From Corallococcus llansteffanensis (GTDB lineage: Bacteria; Myxococcota; Myxococcia; Myxococcales; Myxococcaceae), in NCBI RefSeq assembly GCF_003612055.1, contig NZ_RAWB01000030.1, positions 1 to 34,358 of the forward strand: DNA of 34,358 nucleotides. The letters run 5' to 3'. Numbering within the stretch: position 1 is the first letter of the stretch; every line of letters begins with the position of its first letter. Positions 2,062 to 34,320 of the stretch are shown here, in pieces. The notes beneath the pieces were generated by a model. It did no database searches. It was not told the DNA's origin and saw only the letters and a list, made by a program, of their open reading frames with translations. The position numbers and the translations under genes were made by a program.

Positions 2062-2811
2062 TCAGTTCGCGGCGGTGTTCCCGAGTCCCAGGAAGGCGCG
2101 GGTCCGCTCGTGCTGGGGGTGGGCTAGCACCTGGTCTGGCTTCCCCTCTTCGATGATGTGCCCGCCGTGCAGCACCAACACCCGGGAGGCCAGCGCCCGC
2201 GCGAAGCGCATCTCGTGCGTCACCGTCACCAGCGTCAGCCCGTCATCGCGCAGCCGCTCCAGCAGGGACACCAGGTCCGCCACCCGCTCCGGATCCAGCG
2301 CGCTCGTGGGCTCGTCCAGCAGCAGCGCCTCGGGCTCCATCGCCAGTGCCCGGGCAATGGCCACCCGCTGCTGCTCGCCTCCGGACAGCTCCGCGGGGTA
2401 CGCGCCCTCGCGGTGCGACATGCCCATCTTCGCCAGCAGCTCCCGGGCCCGCTCCGTCGCCTCCTTCACTCCCTGGCCCTTCACGTGGACCGGGGCTTCG
2501 ATGACGTTGCCCAGCGCCGTGCGGTGCGCGAACAGGTGCCACTGCTGGAACACGAAGCCCACCCGCCGCCGGATGTCCCACAGCCGCGAGGCCTGCGCCT
2601 GCCCGCGTCCGGGCTCGAGCGCGCAGTCCCCCACGCGCACCGAGCCTCCATCGAAGGACTCCAGCCCGTTGAGGCACCGCAGCAGCGTGCTCTTGCCGCC
2701 GCCCGAGGGCCCCACCAACGCCACCACCTCGCCCCGGGCGAAGGTGGCGCTGATGCCATCCAGCACCGTCCGGTCCGCGTAACGCTTGGTCAGCCCTCGC
2801 ACCTCGATCAT
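2062..2811 (-). CDS. polar amino-acid ABC transporter ATP-binding protein
   Basis: 249 residues, the normal size for the GlnQ/HisP family. Visible motifs are Walker A GPSGGGKST (34-42), Q-loop FQQ (88-90), signature LSGGEQQ (142-148), Walker B LLLDEP with Asp166/Glu167, D-loop SALD and switch His199 in VTHEM. The start at 2811 overlaps the stop of the upstream permease gene (ATGA), showing translational coupling. It energises the fused binding-protein/permease encoded next to it for import of an amino acid across the inner membrane. The exact substrate cannot be read from the sequence. Confidence 0.95.
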   Translation of the reverse strand: MIEVRGLTKRYADRTVLDGISATFARGEVVALVGPSGGGKSTLLRCLNGLESFDGGSVRVGDCALEPGRGQAQASRLWDIRRRVGFVFQQWHLFAHRTALGNVIEAPVHVKGQGVKEATERARELLAKMGMSHREGAYPAELSGGEQQRVAIARALAMEPEALLLDEPTSALDPERVADLVSLLERLRDDGLTLVTVTHEMRFARALASRVLVLHGGHIIEEGKPDQVLAHPQHERTRAFLGLGNTAAN

Positions 2812-4316
2812 GCCCGCTCCAACTTCGCCTCGAGCATTCGCGCGAGGCGGGACAAGGGGTAGCTCATCGCCAGGTACAGCACCGCGCACAGGGCTCCTGG
2901 CAACAACCAGCTCCGCACATCCACCGCGGTGATGGTCATGCGCTTGGTCAGCTCCACCACGGAGATCACCGACACCAGTGAGCTGTCCTTGAGCAAGGCG
3001 ATGAAGTCGTTGGTGGTTCCGGGCAGGGCCACGCGGAACGCCTGGGGAAGCACCACCCGCCTGAGCGCGAGCCGGGTCGGCATGCCCAGGGCCAGCGCCG
3101 CCTCCATCTGCCCCCGGGGCACCGCGAGCAGGCCCGCGCGATACACCTCCGCCTCGTAGGCCGCGTAGTTCAGCCCCAATCCCAGGATGGCCGCGCTGAG
3201 CGGACCCAGCCGCAGCACGCCCGCCAGTCCGTAATACAGGACATAGAGCTGCAAGAGCACCGGCGTGCCCCGGAGCAGCTCCACATAGGTCGTGGTGAAC
3301 ACACCCATCCACTTCGGCCCATACAGGCGCCCCAGCGCCAGCGCCATTCCCAGCGGGATGGCCAGGACCATGGCTCCCACCGAGACCCCCAGCGTCACCA
3401 GCGACGCCTGGAGAAAGAGCAGCACCTGGTTCCAGTCCAGGCGCGACGTGCTCGTATGGGACAGCACCTCGCGCGTCTGCGCCTCCGTCCACTCCACCAT
3501 GCGCTGCTCGGCGGCGGTGTCGATGCCCCAGCGGCGGAAGATCTCCCGCAGCTCCCCCGAGCGCGCGACGCGGCCCAGGGCCTCATCGAGCGCCTGGCGC
3601 AGGTCCTCCTCTCCAGGCCTCACGGCGATGGCGTAGTACCCCTCGGCCACGTCTCTGACGACTCGCAGGCCGGGGCGCTGCAGGCCGTAGCGCTGTGCGA
3701 TGATGTCGTCCATCAGCACGGCATCCAGCCGGCCCTGCTCCAGGTCGATGTATGGCTCCTGGACGCCCTCGTAGGGAATGGCCTGCGCCCCGCTGCCGCG
3801 CAGCAGCTCCCACGCCTGGGAGTTGGAGAGGGTGCCCACGCGGCGCCCGCGCAGCGACTCCAGCCCCGTCACGGTCGTGTCGTCCCGCCGTGCCATCAAT
3901 TGGAGATGGAAGAGATAGTAGGGGCGCGTGAAGAGCACCCGGCCCGCGCGCGTGGGGGTGATCTCCATGCCGTTCATCGCCACGTCGAAGGAGCCGCCCC
4001 GCTCCAGCGTGGGGATGAGGCTGGACCAGTCGTTCTGGACAAGCTCTGCGCGCACGCCCAGCTCGCGGCCCAGTGCGTCCGCCAGCTCCACCTCGAAGCC
4101 CCGGTACTGGCCCGGGTGTTCCGGGTCCTCCATGGCGTAGGGCTCTCCGCCCTGCGCATCCGCGCCCCAGCGGAGCACGCCCGCGCGCTGCACGCGTTCG
4201 AGCCCCGAACCCTCCTTCTGGCCGCAGGCCGTCAACCACACCAGCACGCCCGTTGCCAGGCAGGCGCGGGAGAACAGGGAGGCGCATCGCGGACGGAGGG
4301 GAGGTGGGTCGGTCAT
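2808..4316 (-). CDS. fused solute-binding protein/permease of amino-acid ABC importer
   Basis: 502 residues, the sum of two usual subunits. Residues 1-31 form a lipoprotein signal ending in LTAC (Cys31). Residues about 38-270 are a family-3 solute-binding domain (GVLRWGADAQGGEPY, GFEVELADALG, FDVAMNGMEITPTRA). Residues about 295-495 are a HisM/GlnP-type permease with several membrane helices, the ELLRGTPVLLQL motif and an EAA loop (EAALALGMPTRLALRRVVLPQ, 405-425) that contacts the ATPase. Such fusions are known in the GlnP type of Gram-positive bacteria. With the coupled ATPase gene this makes a compact two-gene importer. The Shine-Dalgarno is weak, so the exact start is less sure than the product. 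Confidence 0.93.
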   Translation of the reverse strand: MTDPPPLRPRCASLFSRACLATGVLVWLTACGQKEGSGLERVQRAGVLRWGADAQGGEPYAMEDPEHPGQYRGFEVELADALGRELGVRAELVQNDWSSLIPTLERGGSFDVAMNGMEITPTRAGRVLFTRPYYLFHLQLMARRDDTTVTGLESLRGRRVGTLSNSQAWELLRGSGAQAIPYEGVQEPYIDLEQGRLDAVLMDDIIAQRYGLQRPGLRVVRDVAEGYYAIAVRPGEEDLRQALDEALGRVARSGELREIFRRWGIDTAAEQRMVEWTEAQTREVLSHTSTSRLDWNQVLLFLQASLVTLGVSVGAMVLAIPLGMALALGRLYGPKWMGVFTTTYVELLRGTPVLLQLYVLYYGLAGVLRLGPLSAAILGLGLNYAAYEAEVYRAGLLAVPRGQMEAALALGMPTRLALRRVVLPQAFRVALPGTTNDFIALLKDSSLVSVISVVELTKRMTITAVDVRSWLLPGALCAVLYLAMSYPLSRLARMLEAKLERA

Positions 4317-9202: not shown

Positions 9203-11182
9203 TCAGTCGCGTGGCTTCAGGATTTCATCCAGGATCGCCGGTGTGCCCTCGACCCGCCGCAGCCGGGGGTAGCGCAACCCCTCATGCCATGGAATGAGGG
9301 CGGAACGGGTGGCCGTGCCCTGGCGCCAGGAGAGCCGCAAGGGCTCCTGGTGCGCGGTGGCCTTGACGGCGTCCTTCAGTCGTTGCGCGTCGTAGGGGCT
9401 CCCGTTCACGGCCGTCACCACCGCGCCGGGCAGCAGGCCCACCTTGAAGGCAGGCCTTTCCCACTCCACCCGGAGCACCTTGCCGTCCTTCGCGAGCGTC
9501 ATTCCGAGGGAGTCGCCGAGGTCCACGTTCCCGCTCGCCGCCTCGGCCCGCCGGATGGCGTCCGTGGGTTCCTCGCTCCAGGCGAGCGTGTAGCCGCCTT
9601 GCGTGATTCCACCCAGGGGCGGGGCGTCGCGCGTCTCTTCAATCCGGGAGCGGAAGAAGCCTGACCAGTCATGGGGCAGGATGTCATTGAGCGTGGTGAC
9701 GATGTCTTCCAGCGTGTACGTCATCGTCACCTGGCTGCCCGCGCGTACGCCGAAGAACGCGCGAGCGAAGTCATCCAGCGACTTGCGGCCGCCACTGCGC
9801 TCCCGGAGCAGCGTGTCGACCTCCAGCCAGATCAACGCGCCCTCGGAGTAGGCATCGAACATGTCGCGCTGCCAGCCCCGCCAGGAGAGCGGCTTGCGGC
9901 GCTGCACGACGGCGTCGTTTGTCACGTCCCGGAGCGGGCGCCAGCTCCGGCCGGGGCGGCTGGCCATGGCCGCCGCGGTCGCGGCCCAGTCGTCGAGCGC
10001 GTCTTCCCGCGTCCACAACCCCGCCCGGGTGGTGAGCACGTCCTGCCAGTAGGACGTCAATCCCTCGAAGACCCAGAGCAGTGAGTCGCGCTCCGGCGTG
10101 TTGAAGTCCGGCGTCCACATCTCTGCGGGGCGGCGGAACAGGCCGTTCCACGAATGAACGAACCCATGCGCCAGACGTCCACGGTGTTCGGGCCTGTCCT
10201 TCCAGGTCGTGAAGAAGTCGGCGGGCAGGGCGTTCTCACCCGCGCGGAGGTGTTCGAAGTAGCTGGGGCCGAAGCCGTCCGCCAGCCAGACCATCAGGTC
10301 GTAATGGTCGTAGTGTTGCGAGCCGAAGAGCCGGTAGGCCTGTTGCACGAGTGCCTGGTAGCCCCGGACGAATCCGGGAGGTGGTTCGAGCCCCGCGGCG
10401 TCGTCGGCGACGATGTTCACGTGGACCGGGACGGGCTCGTCGCTCAACAGGATGCGTTTGAAGGCACGGCCGGCAATCACAGGTGAGTCGACCAGCGTGT
10501 CCAGCGTCACCGGCTGGAACCGGACCTCACCGCCATCCCGTTGGGCGACGGTCAGCGGCGAGGCGAACTCCCAGGTGGGCGGCAGCTTCACGCTGGCCAC
10601 ATAGGTGATGCGCCGGGCGTAATGGCCCGCGGGATACAGCACCAGGTGGTGCCATTGCAGGTCCAGCATCGTGGACGTGGCCACCACCGGGCCCACGCGT
10701 GGCTCCGTGGCGCCAAGGAACTGGGAGTGCACGTCGATGGACGTCACGCCCGCGGGGATGTCGATGTGGAAGGCCGCGACCTGGACGGCGTCGCGGGTCC
10801 AGGCAATGACTCTCTTTCCGGCCTGGACCTTCAGCCCCGCGAGTCCTTCCAGTTGACCGGTGGGCCCATGGTCCCCAGGAAGCCACTGCGGGAAGAACAG
10901 CGTCAACCGCCTTCCGGGCGCGACCGGGATGGTTTGCTTGACGCGGAAGAGCCCGCGCGCCGTGTCGGTGGCGTCGACGTGCAAGCGGATGGTGCCGGGG
11001 AAGGGCGTGTCACGCGGCGCCTCGATGGGCGGCGGCATGGGCGCGGGTTGGGGCAGCGGCCAGGACTGGGATGCGGAGGATGCCTGAGCGTGCGCCGCCG
11101 TCGAAACCATCCAGACGGCCACCGTGGCGACAACGCATGGCATGACCCTGACGCTTCGAGGATGGGCGGGAGAGGCCGGCAT
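9203..11182 (-). CDS. M61 glycyl-aminopeptidase-like protein with PDZ domain, catalytic Glu missing
   Basis: 659 residues, the usual M61 length. A signal sequence ends near AAHAQ (about residue 33); an internal ATG at residue 14 is an alternative start. An N-terminal beta domain is followed by the peptidase core and a C-terminal PDZ domain (about 545-640, SLGMTLAKDGKVLRVEW, AFKVGLLPGAVVTAVNG). The zinc site is normally HExxH-x-WN. Here it reads H339-G-F-V-H343-S-W-N, because codon 10163-10165 is GGG. The third ligand, Glu373 in FEGLTSYW, is kept. Zinc may still bind, but the general-base glutamate is absent, so the protein may be a pseudo-peptidase. It is divergent from a LysR gene 75 bp away. 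Confidence 0.9.
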   Translation of the reverse strand: MPASPAHPRSVRVMPCVVATVAVWMVSTAAHAQASSASQSWPLPQPAPMPPPIEAPRDTPFPGTIRLHVDATDTARGLFRVKQTIPVAPGRRLTLFFPQWLPGDHGPTGQLEGLAGLKVQAGKRVIAWTRDAVQVAAFHIDIPAGVTSIDVHSQFLGATEPRVGPVVATSTMLDLQWHHLVLYPAGHYARRITYVASVKLPPTWEFASPLTVAQRDGGEVRFQPVTLDTLVDSPVIAGRAFKRILLSDEPVPVHVNIVADDAAGLEPPPGFVRGYQALVQQAYRLFGSQHYDHYDLMVWLADGFGPSYFEHLRAGENALPADFFTTWKDRPEHRGRLAHGFVHSWNGLFRRPAEMWTPDFNTPERDSLLWVFEGLTSYWQDVLTTRAGLWTREDALDDWAATAAAMASRPGRSWRPLRDVTNDAVVQRRKPLSWRGWQRDMFDAYSEGALIWLEVDTLLRERSGGRKSLDDFARAFFGVRAGSQVTMTYTLEDIVTTLNDILPHDWSGFFRSRIEETRDAPPLGGITQGGYTLAWSEEPTDAIRRAEAASGNVDLGDSLGMTLAKDGKVLRVEWERPAFKVGLLPGAVVTAVNGSPYDAQRLKDAVKATAHQEPLRLSWRQGTATRSALIPWHEGLRYPRLRRVEGTPAILDEILKPRD

Positions 11183-11233: not shown

Positions 11234-11257
11234 GCCTGGGTTCGAGGAAATCGAACG

Positions 11258-12169
11258 ATGCTCCCCCGGATCAACCTGGACATGGATGTCTTGCGGACGT
11301 TCGTGACGGCCTTCGAGCTGGGCAGCTTCGCCCGGGCCGCCGCACGGGTGGGCCGGTCTCCGTCAGCGGTGAGCTCCCAGCTGCGCAAGCTGGAGGAGCA
11401 GGTGGGCCGCGCGCTGGTCGAACGCTCCGGGCGCGGGCTGGTCCTGACCGAAGCGGGAGAGGTGCTGCTGGGCTGCGCGCGGCGGATCCTCGAACTGAAT
11501 GATCAGACCGTGGACAGCTTGCGAGGCAGCGAGCTGGAGGGCGAGGTCCGCCTGGGGTTGCCGCAGGACTTCGCCGAAACCTGGCTGCCCCGGGTGCTCA
11601 GCACCTTCGCGCGCGCGCATCCGGCGGTGCGCATCGAGGTGCGCACCGAGCGCAACGCCCACCTCGTCAACCACGTGATGACGGGCAAGCTGGACCTCGC
11701 GCTTGCCTGGAGCGGTGGGGCTCGCGGCTGCAGTGAACGCATCGCTGAACTGCCGCTCGTGTGGATTGGTCAGCCTGGCTGGCAGGCTACGGGAAGCCGC
11801 AGCCAGCCGCTGCCGCTCATCGCCTTCGAAGCGCCCTGCGTGTTCCGGGAGGCCTGCACGACTGCCTTGGACCGGAAGGGGCTCGCCTGGCGGATCGCGT
11901 TCGCGAGCCCGAGCCTCGCGGGCCTGTGGGCGGCGGCCGAGGCGGGGCTGGGCGTGACGCTGCGAACGGCCTTCGGCCTGCCGAAGACGCTGGCCGTGCT
12001 GGAGCCCGGCGCCTCGGGCCTGCCCGTGCTCGGGAGCATTCCGGTGCACCTGCTCAGGGCTGAACGGGAGCCGAGCAAGACCGTGGCCCAACTGGCCGGC
12101 ATCCTGCGTGAATCGCTCGCGCAGGAGCTGACGACACCCCGGCGGGCGCGGCCGCGCGGCAGGGACTGA
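11258..12169 (+). CDS. LysR family transcriptional regulator
   Basis: 303 residues. The start at 11258 has GAGGAAA about eight bases upstream, and the protein begins in the typical LysR way (LDMDVLRTFVTAFELGSFARAAARV). The winged helix-turn-helix covers about residues 8-66 (SAVSSQLRKLEEQVG, LTEAGEVLL). The effector domain follows from about 92 (GEVRLGLPQDFAE). The C-terminus ends in an Arg-rich tail. LysR regulators often control the divergent gene and themselves, so the adjacent M61 gene is the likely target; the inducer is unknown. Confidence 0.95.
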   Translation: MLPRINLDMDVLRTFVTAFELGSFARAAARVGRSPSAVSSQLRKLEEQVGRALVERSGRGLVLTEAGEVLLGCARRILELNDQTVDSLRGSELEGEVRLGLPQDFAETWLPRVLSTFARAHPAVRIEVRTERNAHLVNHVMTGKLDLALAWSGGARGCSERIAELPLVWIGQPGWQATGSRSQPLPLIAFEAPCVFREACTTALDRKGLAWRIAFASPSLAGLWAAAEAGLGVTLRTAFGLPKTLAVLEPGASGLPVLGSIPVHLLRAEREPSKTVAQLAGILRESLAQELTTPRRARPRGRD

Positions 12170-14690: not shown

Positions 14691-16097
14691 TCAGTTCTCA
14701 GCCAGGCTGAAGTGGGTCACGCGGCCATCCGGGATGATGCTCACCTTGTAGCGCCAGGTCGCGGTCCCGAACTTCACCAGGTACGTGTAGACGCGGTCAT
14801 CGCCCAGCACCTCGCGCTTCGCCAGGACGAGCGGCCCCGCCGGCCCCAGGTCCTGCACCAGGTCCTGGTAGTACGGCACAGCCTCCGGGAAGAACCAGCT
14901 CGGGAGGTACGCGAAACCCGCCGGATCCAGCGTCCCGTCCCGGATCTGTTCGAGCATCGCCGTGAACCGGGCCGTCATCGCCGGCTCCCGGTCGGGAACG
15001 GGCGCCAGGGGTGGCACCGCGAGCGCGGGGTTCACGATGGCCGCGATCCCGTCCACGAACGTCGTGGGGTTCGCGGTGTTGGAGTTGATCAACACCACGA
15101 TGGACAGCTCGTCTCCGAGGAAACGGGAGTAGGCGCAGACGAAGCCCTGCCAGCCACCGGTGTGCTGATGCAGCGGCTTGCCCGCGCGCTCCTGGATCAT
15201 CCAGCCAAAGCCATACGGATAGGAGGCCCCGCTGTTGAGCTTCACGGGGGTGAGGATCTGCTGCCAGCTCCCCCGGCCCAGGATGGCCCGCTGGTCCACG
15301 GCGGCGTCCCAGGCCAGCACGTCCTTCAAGGAGAAGTAGAGCGAACCGTCCGCGTTGCGATTCAACGACGGCGAAACCCACTCCTGGTTCTTCACCACGC
15401 CGTCGACCACGCTGTAGCCGGCCGCGCGGTTCGGGATGACGTCCTCCTCACTGATGCCTCGCGCGGACGTCATGTGCGCGGGCCGGAAGACCTGCGACCC
15501 CAGGACGTTGACGTAGGAGGTGCCCGCGACCTGGTTCACCAGGATGCCCAGCAGGACGTAGCCGGTGTTGCTGTAGTTCCAGCGCAGGCCGGCGGGGAAC
15601 TGAAGGGGTCGCTCATAGGCGATCTGCAGGTAGTCCGCGTCGGTGTAGTCCTTCCGGAGGTCGAGCACGTCGTAGATGTCGCCGACGCCGGAGGTGTGCG
15701 TCAGCAGGTGACGCACCGTGATGGGCCGCCACGTCGCGGGCGCGTCGGGGAAGTACTTCGTGATGCTGTCGGACAGGGCCACCCTGCCGGCCTCCACCTG
15801 GAGCATCACCGTCATCGCGGTGAACATCTTCCCCACGGAGCCGGACTGGAAGAGGGTGTCCGTCTCCACGGGGACCTGGTGCTCCAGGTTCGCGAAGCCA
15901 TACCCCTTCGACAGCACGACCCGCCCGTGACTCACGACACCCACGGCGAGACCGGGCACGCGCTGCCGTTTCTGCTCCGCGCGCACGAAGGCTTCAATCC
16001 GCTCGCGCAGCGAATCATGCGCGGCGGCGGGGCCCCCCAGGAGCAGGCCCACGAGAAGGACAGCCACGACTGCGATGGATTTCGACGGGTTGCGCAT
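14691..16097 (-). CDS. secreted serine hydrolase, beta-lactamase/class C fold
   Basis: 468 residues. The ATG at 16097 has GGGAG six bases upstream and starts a signal peptide (MRNPSKSIAVVAVLLVGLLL, cleavage near AAA-HD). The beta-lactamase fold shows Ser87-x-x-Lys90 (SVGK), the Tyr175-Ser-Asn177 motif (YSN) and a late HTGG replacing KTG. About 110 extra C-terminal residues form a lipocalin-like or beta tail (VSIIPDGRVTHFSLAEN). Such proteins are esterases, D-aminopeptidases or penicillin-binding-like enzymes more often than true beta-lactamases. It is probably periplasmic. Confidence 0.93.
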   Translation of the reverse strand: MRNPSKSIAVVAVLLVGLLLGGPAAAHDSLRERIEAFVRAEQKRQRVPGLAVGVVSHGRVVLSKGYGFANLEHQVPVETDTLFQSGSVGKMFTAMTVMLQVEAGRVALSDSITKYFPDAPATWRPITVRHLLTHTSGVGDIYDVLDLRKDYTDADYLQIAYERPLQFPAGLRWNYSNTGYVLLGILVNQVAGTSYVNVLGSQVFRPAHMTSARGISEEDVIPNRAAGYSVVDGVVKNQEWVSPSLNRNADGSLYFSLKDVLAWDAAVDQRAILGRGSWQQILTPVKLNSGASYPYGFGWMIQERAGKPLHQHTGGWQGFVCAYSRFLGDELSIVVLINSNTANPTTFVDGIAAIVNPALAVPPLAPVPDREPAMTARFTAMLEQIRDGTLDPAGFAYLPSWFFPEAVPYYQDLVQDLGPAGPLVLAKREVLGDDRVYTYLVKFGTATWRYKVSIIPDGRVTHFSLAEN

Positions 16098-32442: not shown

Positions 32443-34320
32443 TCAGGCGGCCTGCGAGTCGGGACGGTGCGCCTTCATGAACCTGTGTCGTCCCAGGTAG
32501 CCCTGGAAGGCCTGGAGCACCGCATCCGGATCCTTGAGCTTGCTCAGGCAGATGGAGCGCCGGCGGGTGAAGCGGCCTTCTCCAATGACATCCAGGTCCA
32601 GGTACTTCTTGAACAGGCGCTCGGCGGTGGAGGCGGTAGCGACCTGGTCGAACAGGACGGGCTGCTCCCACTCCGTGCAGCTCACCTGCGCATGGTCCAT
32701 CCGCACCTCGTAGCCGTCCTCCTTGCTTTCGAAGACCTTCGGCGGGAAGTGCTTCTCCACGAGTTGCCGCTCCTCGTCCGTGGCCGGTTCGTAGCGGCAG
32801 GCGAGTGCCAGGTCATGGGCCTGGGCGAAGCGCTCCTCGTAGACGCCCCACAGCCGCGCCTCGATGGCCTCCGCGTCCACGATGGCGTCCACCCACGAGG
32901 ACGCCACGGGCTCCAGAAGCGCCTGCGACATGTCCGCGGGCTTGAGGTGGACGCCCACGTTCTCCATGCGCGCGGCCAGGGGCGGATGGGAGTCGAAGGG
33001 ATGGGGTGTCACGGCACGCTGCAAGTCGTCGTGCACCGCCTCGGACCGGGCATACTCGGAGAAGCCGTGCGCGACCCGCTGCGCGATGGCCACCGAGTGG
33101 TGCCGCGCATCCTCGGCGAAGAGCTTCTCCTCCACGCGCGCACGGAAGCTTGCGTACGCGCCCACCTTCACCAGCGAGCGGGCGATGTCCTGCCCCGACG
33201 TCACCCCCGCCGCCAGCCGGTCCGCCGCGAGCTCACTGGCGCGCTGGCCGCGGCCCAGCGACAGCTCGAACAGCACGCGATAGGCCCTCATGAAATAGAA
33301 GATGGGCAGCGTCATGCCGCCCTCGTGCAGCGTCTGCAGGTAGTGGCCGAAGTGCGACAGCACGGGCGCCAGCCGCTTGCTGTGCCCCGTGTCGCCTCCC
33401 AGGAGGTGCCCCATCTCGTGCGCCAGCACCGCCTCCGCCTCGGAGCGCTCCAGCATGCGCAGCAGGGACAGGCTCACGAAGAGCGTGCGGCCCGAGAGCA
33501 TGCGCCCGCCTACGCGCACTTCATGCTCGGTGACGAAGAAGTTGGTGTCGATGCCCGCGAGGATGTGGTCGGGCGGGGACGTCTTCAGCCGCTCGCACAG
33601 CCGGCGCACGCAGGCCCACAGCTCCGGGGCCCGCTCCTCGGTGACTTCCTCCGCCTCCACCTCGAAGTCCGTGGGCGGGCGATGGAAGATGGCCACGACC
33701 ACCACGAACACGGCGATCAAAGCCACGCCGGCCATGAGGAGGATGAGCTTCGGGTAGTAGCTGTGGAACCACAGCGCGGTCGTCCAGTAGGAGAGCCACA
33801 CCAGCAGGGCGCCCTGTCCCAGCACCTGGAGCGCGCTGGAGATGCGGAGCACGTGCCAGCCGACCACGAAGCCGCCGTACTGGAAGGGGCGTGAGATGAA
33901 CGCCGCCAGGCCGCACAGGAGCGCGATCCCCGTGGAGGCAAGCCCGAGCGCCAGCAGGATCCAGGAGGCAAGACGGGCCCACTGGAACTGCTTCAGGTCC
34001 GAGCACGCGTCGCCCAGGCTGTTGCGGTAGCGCGTCAGCTCCACGTCGTCGCCCAGACAGGCCGCCGACGCAGGGACCGCGCGGTAGAAGGCGAACGCCT
34101 CCTGACGGTCCGCGTCGCTCAACGACATGTCCTGGTCCAGCTGCCTCTTGATGGCTTCGAGCACATCCGCGTCGAAGCGGTCGGAGGCATGACCGGAGAA
34201 CCAGAGCCCGAACAGCGGCAGGGCAAAGAGCAGCAGCGCAGGCGGCACGAGGCCGCGGACGAAACCTGGGGATTTCCGAGAGGAGGCCATGGGAGCTGGC
34301 GAACCAGCATAGCGCGCCAC
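32443..34320 (-). CDS. membrane M48-family metalloprotease
   Basis: 625 residues with a GTG start at 34320, supported by GGAG eight bases upstream; an ATG at 34290 is the alternative. Membrane helices lie near 23-42, 117-140, 150-180 and 190-212. The zinc site is LAHEMGHLLGGD (His301, Glu302, His305) with the third ligand Glu363 in ASELAADRLA. FDSHPPLAARMENV is the usual M48 strand. A further 200 residues follow. M48 enzymes (HtpX/Ste24/BepA-like) process membrane or outer-membrane proteins. The four N-terminal helices and the long tail set it apart from HtpX. Confidence 0.93.
   Translation of the reverse strand: MARYAGSPAPMASSRKSPGFVRGLVPPALLLFALPLFGLWFSGHASDRFDADVLEAIKRQLDQDMSLSDADRQEAFAFYRAVPASAACLGDDVELTRYRNSLGDACSDLKQFQWARLASWILLALGLASTGIALLCGLAAFISRPFQYGGFVVGWHVLRISSALQVLGQGALLVWLSYWTTALWFHSYYPKLILLMAGVALIAVFVVVVAIFHRPPTDFEVEAEEVTEERAPELWACVRRLCERLKTSPPDHILAGIDTNFFVTEHEVRVGGRMLSGRTLFVSLSLLRMLERSEAEAVLAHEMGHLLGGDTGHSKRLAPVLSHFGHYLQTLHEGGMTLPIFYFMRAYRVLFELSLGRGQRASELAADRLAAGVTSGQDIARSLVKVGAYASFRARVEEKLFAEDARHHSVAIAQRVAHGFSEYARSEAVHDDLQRAVTPHPFDSHPPLAARMENVGVHLKPADMSQALLEPVASSWVDAIVDAEAIEARLWGVYEERFAQAHDLALACRYEPATDEERQLVEKHFPPKVFESKEDGYEVRMDHAQVSCTEWEQPVLFDQVATASTAERLFKKYLDLDVIGEGRFTRRRSICLSKLKDPDAVLQAFQGYLGRHRFMKAHRPDSQAA

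Follow-up and report, generated by a model that had tools for sequence, protein, structure and literature searches.

Does a zinc peptidase that has lost its catalytic glutamate still have a job? The window that we analyzed, a stretch of 34,358 nucleotides from Corallococcus llansteffanensis (NZ_RAWB01000030.1), whose genus comprises predatory bacteria of the soil, encodes an M61-family protein with HGFVH in place of HEFVH at its zinc-binding motif (positions 10168–10163 on the minus strand read CATGGG). The glycine might be an error in the assembly, a sign that the gene is decaying, or a fixed feature of a protein that is retained for another reason. We refer to this protein as the HG protein, and to relatives with the usual motif as HE proteins.

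A member of peptidase family M61 with glycine at the catalytic position

The features of the gene, all on the minus strand, are as follows.

9203–11182, minus strand: M61-family protein with an HGFVH motif, 659 amino acids (stop codon included in the coordinates); from the open reading frame, Pfam PF17899 and PF05299, and alignment with PDB 8j9c/8j9d
11087–11182, minus strand: probable signal peptide, about residues 1–32, ending ...AHA-Q, as judged from the sequence
10466–10984, minus strand: peptidase M61 N-terminal domain, residues 67–239 (Pfam)
9830–10177, minus strand: peptidase M61 catalytic-domain match, residues 336–451 (Pfam)
10163–10168, minus strand: codons CAT GGG for His339 and Gly340, a zinc histidine followed by the glycine that replaces the catalytic glutamate
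10154–10156, minus strand: His343, the second zinc ligand, invariant across the HG clade
10064–10066, minus strand: Glu373 (in VFEGLT), which is the third zinc ligand and invariant, with Phe372 in place of the tyrosine before it
9848–9850, minus strand: Tyr445 (DAYSEG), invariant; by analogy with M1 enzymes, presumably the catalytic tyrosine
9206–9547, minus strand: C-terminal PDZ-like region, about residues 546–659, as suggested by end-to-end alignment with 8j9c

Both Pfam matches are above the cutoff (Peptidase_M61_N, PF17899, 107 bits, 1.1e-30; Peptidase_M61, PF05299, 105 bits, 3.7e-30), and residues 48–658 align with 8j9c and 8j9d, solved chains described as “putative glycyl aminopeptidase” (E = 3.5e-159) that have HE intact at the motif position. 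With both domain models and the His/His/Glu ligands in place, the protein is by homology a member of peptidase family M61. The initial annotation had described a GGG codon for glycine at the position of the catalytic glutamate, along with both zinc histidines, Glu373, and a WN motif. All of these are present: His343 and Glu373 have the numbers it gave, the WN motif occurs as SWNG, and the same glycine is found in nine separate assemblies (see below). It had also described a PDZ domain, which stands in part. No Pfam PDZ model scored in the HG protein, and we call the C-terminal region PDZ-like because the protein aligns from end to end with the M61 chains 8j9c and 8j9d. Given the probable signal peptide, the protein is probably located outside the cytoplasm (in the periplasm or beyond the cell). 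An AlphaFold2 model built from eight sequences had a pLDDT of just 32.6 and was set aside.

Several other genes were of some interest. The window encodes an HtpX-like M48 protein (32443–34248, minus strand) whose HEMGH motif, unlike that of the HG protein nearby, is intact. A single frame at 2808–4247 (minus strand) fuses a family-3 solute-binding domain to an ABC permease domain and adjoins the gene for its ATPase (2062–2811). The protein at 14691–16052 (minus strand) has a beta-lactamase fold, and its top NCBIfam match is to D-aminopeptidase, at a score below the curated cutoff. Elsewhere in the genome, a third and weak match to the M61 models (L050, G000:C505) has the motif HELAH and lies in a different, larger frame.

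The glycine is found in all nine orthologs

We found a full-length ortholog in nine of 16 Corallococcus genomes, and the gene is absent from the other seven. All nine genes are open frames, they are 83–97% identical to the window copy, and all nine have glycine at position 340. Thus, the HExxH glutamate of active M61 enzymes is missing from 9/9 of these proteins. The codon is GGG in eight of them and GGC, which is two changes away from either glutamate codon, in the ninth. The named relatives that have the gene comprise mainly Corallococcus species and one metagenome-assembled genome of the Myxococcaceae. (Our alignment has 16 rows with glycine; these are the nine genes, seven of which were counted twice because they reappear, with the same residues, in the collection of named relatives.) The comparison of orthologs had been set beforehand as the test, with conservation of the glycine in a clade to be read as a functional loss, and it came out that way.

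The other 34 M61 rows all have glutamate at this motif, including the nearest outsiders (47–48% identity). Across 96 genomes from the family and 195 from the phylum, homologs of this M61 type were 34–48% identical and had glutamate wherever the motif was readable. The rows from outside Myxococcota are few, namely the PDB chains and six plasmid-borne homologs (from Sphingomonas, Eleftheria, Xanthomonas, Tsukamurella, and Granulicella), and all six of the latter have glutamate. We also searched the DNA of the phylum with a pattern for the glycine motif (HG, a Phe/Tyr-type residue, any residue, H, any residue, WN). The matches were the nine genes and one site in another genome (G125), which we rejected because it sits in an unrelated frame of 116 codons. 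Pattern scans of viral contigs returned three matches of HG type and two of HE type.

In a maximum-likelihood tree, the nine HG proteins form a single clade with 100/100 support. The simplest reading is that a single E340G replacement preceded the divergence of the known Corallococcus copies. In a rough tree built from the M61 paralog of the same genomes, the Corallococcus that have the HG gene are intermingled with those that do not, so the gene must have been lost or transferred on occasion.

The gene is under purifying selection and its active site was probably remodeled

For the HG gene, the median pairwise dN/dS is 0.27 (range 0.21–0.36), or 0.21 if we consider the catalytic domain, and the HE-type M61 paralog from the same genomes has a dN/dS of 0.23. 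Within the HG clade, 13% of positions in residues 335–380, which include the motif, are variable, as compared to 31% over the full length; this level of conservation is matched by about 3% of 46-residue windows. Conservation of a single codon over such a small divergence is weak evidence, so our argument rests on the gene as a whole and on the region around the motif. Also, 13 HE relatives share 64 invariant alignment columns, and 54 of these are retained across all HG rows, among them His339, His343, and Glu373.

The initial annotation considered the protein to be a single G/A change away from an active site. This understates the difference, since the lineage also acquired replacements at several other positions near the motif. 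The clade-fixed changes that are near the active site in the sequence are E340G, K348L (valine in one protein), and Y372F. G380Q and T420V are fixed at positions that are otherwise nearly invariant, and residue 444, which is tyrosine in most relatives, is alanine in the HG clade, with Tyr445 kept. The clade also gained four acidic residues (Asp322, Glu364, Asp398, and Asp440) that are absent, or nearly so, outside of it. We infer that these changes look like remodeling with the zinc site preserved, and not like erosion. By sequence, the protein is a probable pseudoenzyme: the catalytic residue was lost by a fixed substitution, the fold is apparently kept (judging from homology to 8j9c), and the gene, with its open frames and low dN/dS, is being retained by selection instead of decaying.

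A divergent LysR-type regulator accompanies the gene

Upstream of the M61 gene are two more features.

11258–12169, plus strand: LysR-type regulator, divergent from the M61 gene (Pfam HTH_1 and LysR_substrate)
11241–11255, plus strand: TTCGAGGAAATCGAA, an inverted repeat of LysR-box form (T-N11-A) between the M61 and LysR genes

The LysR gene starts 75 bases upstream of the M61 gene, and going by this layout the two are a divergent pair with a T-N11-A box between them. The palindrome TTCGAGGAAATCGAA has the form TTCGA-N5-TCGAA, is the sole match to its pattern in the window (0.03 matches expected), and is conserved in all of the orthologous intergenic regions that we examined. Wherever an orthologous locus has sufficient flanking sequence, the regulator adjoins the M61 gene, even though the neighboring genes differ, and among the 16 Corallococcus genomes, both genes are present in nine and both are absent from seven. 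The dN/dS of the regulator is 0.16. The M61 gene is probably expressed under the control of this LysR via the TTCGA-N5-TCGAA box.

More distant relatives of the regulator from the family (53% identity) had no M61 gene beside them in the two loci that we read (L084 and L086), and no LysR gene was recognized in the stretches that we read around two HE relatives (L081 and L082), so the pairing apparently arose together with the HG lineage. One genome (G007) has an intact LysR/M61 pair and also a fragmentary second copy of the LysR and the M61 N-terminal region (G007:C648:29706-29963, L018 / L083; 81% identity over residues 25–110), which is probably a relic of duplication or transfer.

What might the protein do?

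On balance, we believe that the HG protein is a fixed, regulated, and secreted M61 pseudo-peptidase that is specific to a lineage within Corallococcus, and we hold this with somewhat better than even confidence. The comparisons show E340G as a replacement of single origin in an otherwise intact M61 protein, which purifying selection has kept and which forms a two-gene unit with the divergent LysR. We propose that the protein is secreted and still binds zinc via His339, His343, and Glu373. The role of the HExxH glutamate in M61 and related gluzincins is to polarize the zinc-bound water. Glycine cannot do this, so the water would not be activated for attack on a peptide bond, and we would expect little or no peptide hydrolysis. 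The peptide cleft and the PDZ-like tail would in that case most likely hold a partner, either a peptide or a protein, and the HG protein might act as a sensor, a sequestering protein, a chaperone, or a competitor of an active peptidase. Because selection has kept the zinc ligands, the cleft, and the C-terminal region, binding is the simplest function to have been retained, and because the gene has been kept whole together with a regulator of its own, its product probably binds peptides and is no longer an enzyme. A binding or chaperone pseudo-peptidase was one of the initial annotation's suggestions, and fixation of the glycine across the clade supports it; the loss of catalysis and the particular role are what we infer. 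Against this reading, seven of the 16 Corallococcus genomes manage without the gene. A bolder proposal, which is speculative and to our minds doubtful, is that the M61 zinc site was put to new use, either in a secreted receptor or sequesterer of signal or prey peptides or in a zinc enzyme that is not a peptidase, carried in a LysR-controlled unit that is horizontally mobile or was lost repeatedly.

Two other explanations for the glycine fare poorly. One base (GGG versus GAG) is all that an error in sequencing or assembly, or a mutation found solely in this strain, would take, but nine independent assemblies agree, one of them with the GGC codon, and we give this explanation next to no weight. 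Gene decay, in which a dead enzyme without a function is being lost, would fit the patchy occurrence of the gene (9/16 genomes) and the truncated copy in G007. It is hard to reconcile with nine full-length open genes that have dN/dS near 0.27 and are separated from the window copy by dS of up to ~0.39, with a motif region that is among the most constrained stretches of the protein, or with the conservation of the partner LysR and the palindrome, so we consider decay to be improbable. The orthologs and the dN/dS thus reject both sequencing error and recent decay, and with them the alternative in the initial annotation of a very recent inactivation or an error.

It is also possible, though we think unlikely, that the HG protein is still an enzyme, with one of the newly acquired acids (Glu364, Asp322, Asp398, or Asp440) serving as a substitute base or with a different reaction at the zinc site for which the HExxH glutamate is dispensable. 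What counts against this idea is that enzymes of this clan normally have no peptidase activity once the HExxH glutamate is gone. Conversely, Tyr445 and all of the zinc ligands are still in place, few stretches of the protein are as conserved as the motif region, and the four clade-fixed acids would make a substitute base possible. However, none of these acids is within the motif, and Glu364 is nine residues before Glu373, so an acid at the water site seems improbable. There is a precedent for versatility: in LTA4H, one gluzincin zinc site hosts two overlapping activities (PMC5648829).

If the HG protein is indeed a pseudo-peptidase, then it is a compact bacterial case: with nine orthologs, active-type relatives, a solved homolog, and a linked regulator, the fate of a zinc peptidase after the loss of its cutting residue is directly testable. 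It is also a warning for annotation, as profile scores call these genes M61 glycyl aminopeptidases despite the clade-wide loss of the catalytic residue.

Comparison with known systems

The HG protein has the domains of the M61 glycyl aminopeptidase family (PF05299/PF17899; 8j9c, 8j9d) and keeps the zinc ligands, the WN motif, and the C-terminal region, but it has glycine for the catalytic glutamate and is changed at positions 348, 372, 380, 420, and 444. The closest relatives that we found are M61 proteins from other myxobacteria (L034 and L039), which are 47–48% identical over their length; these have HEYVHSWDG at the motif, and no LysR gene was recognized beside them in the stretches that we read. 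The second M61 protein of the same genomes (G000:C908) is in the same family but is just ~22% identical to the HG protein, has an intact HExxH (HEYFHLWN), and was found in all 16 of the Corallococcus genomes that we searched.

In the literature that we searched, we found no paper dedicated to the structure and function of M61. Both the M61 family and pseudo-peptidases are known, and the latter occur in several metallopeptidase families, mostly in eukaryotes (PMC11266112). That review covers pseudoenzymes from M1, M12, M13, M14, M15, M16, M24, and M41, and M61 is not among them, but absence from one review is not proof of novelty. Two precedents agree with our reading of the HG protein: for the M1 enzyme LTA4H, the structure of the inactive E296Q mutant was solved with a tripeptide bound (PMC5648829), and the N-domain of Sonic hedgehog, which is M15-like, keeps three zinc ligands with alanine in place of the general base (PMC11266112). 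Inactive ADAMs, for example ADAM7 and ADAM29, are a further parallel (PMC11266112). In Sonic hedgehog and these ADAMs, as in the HG protein, the zinc ligands are kept and the general base is lost, but they belong to other peptidase families and are found in animals.
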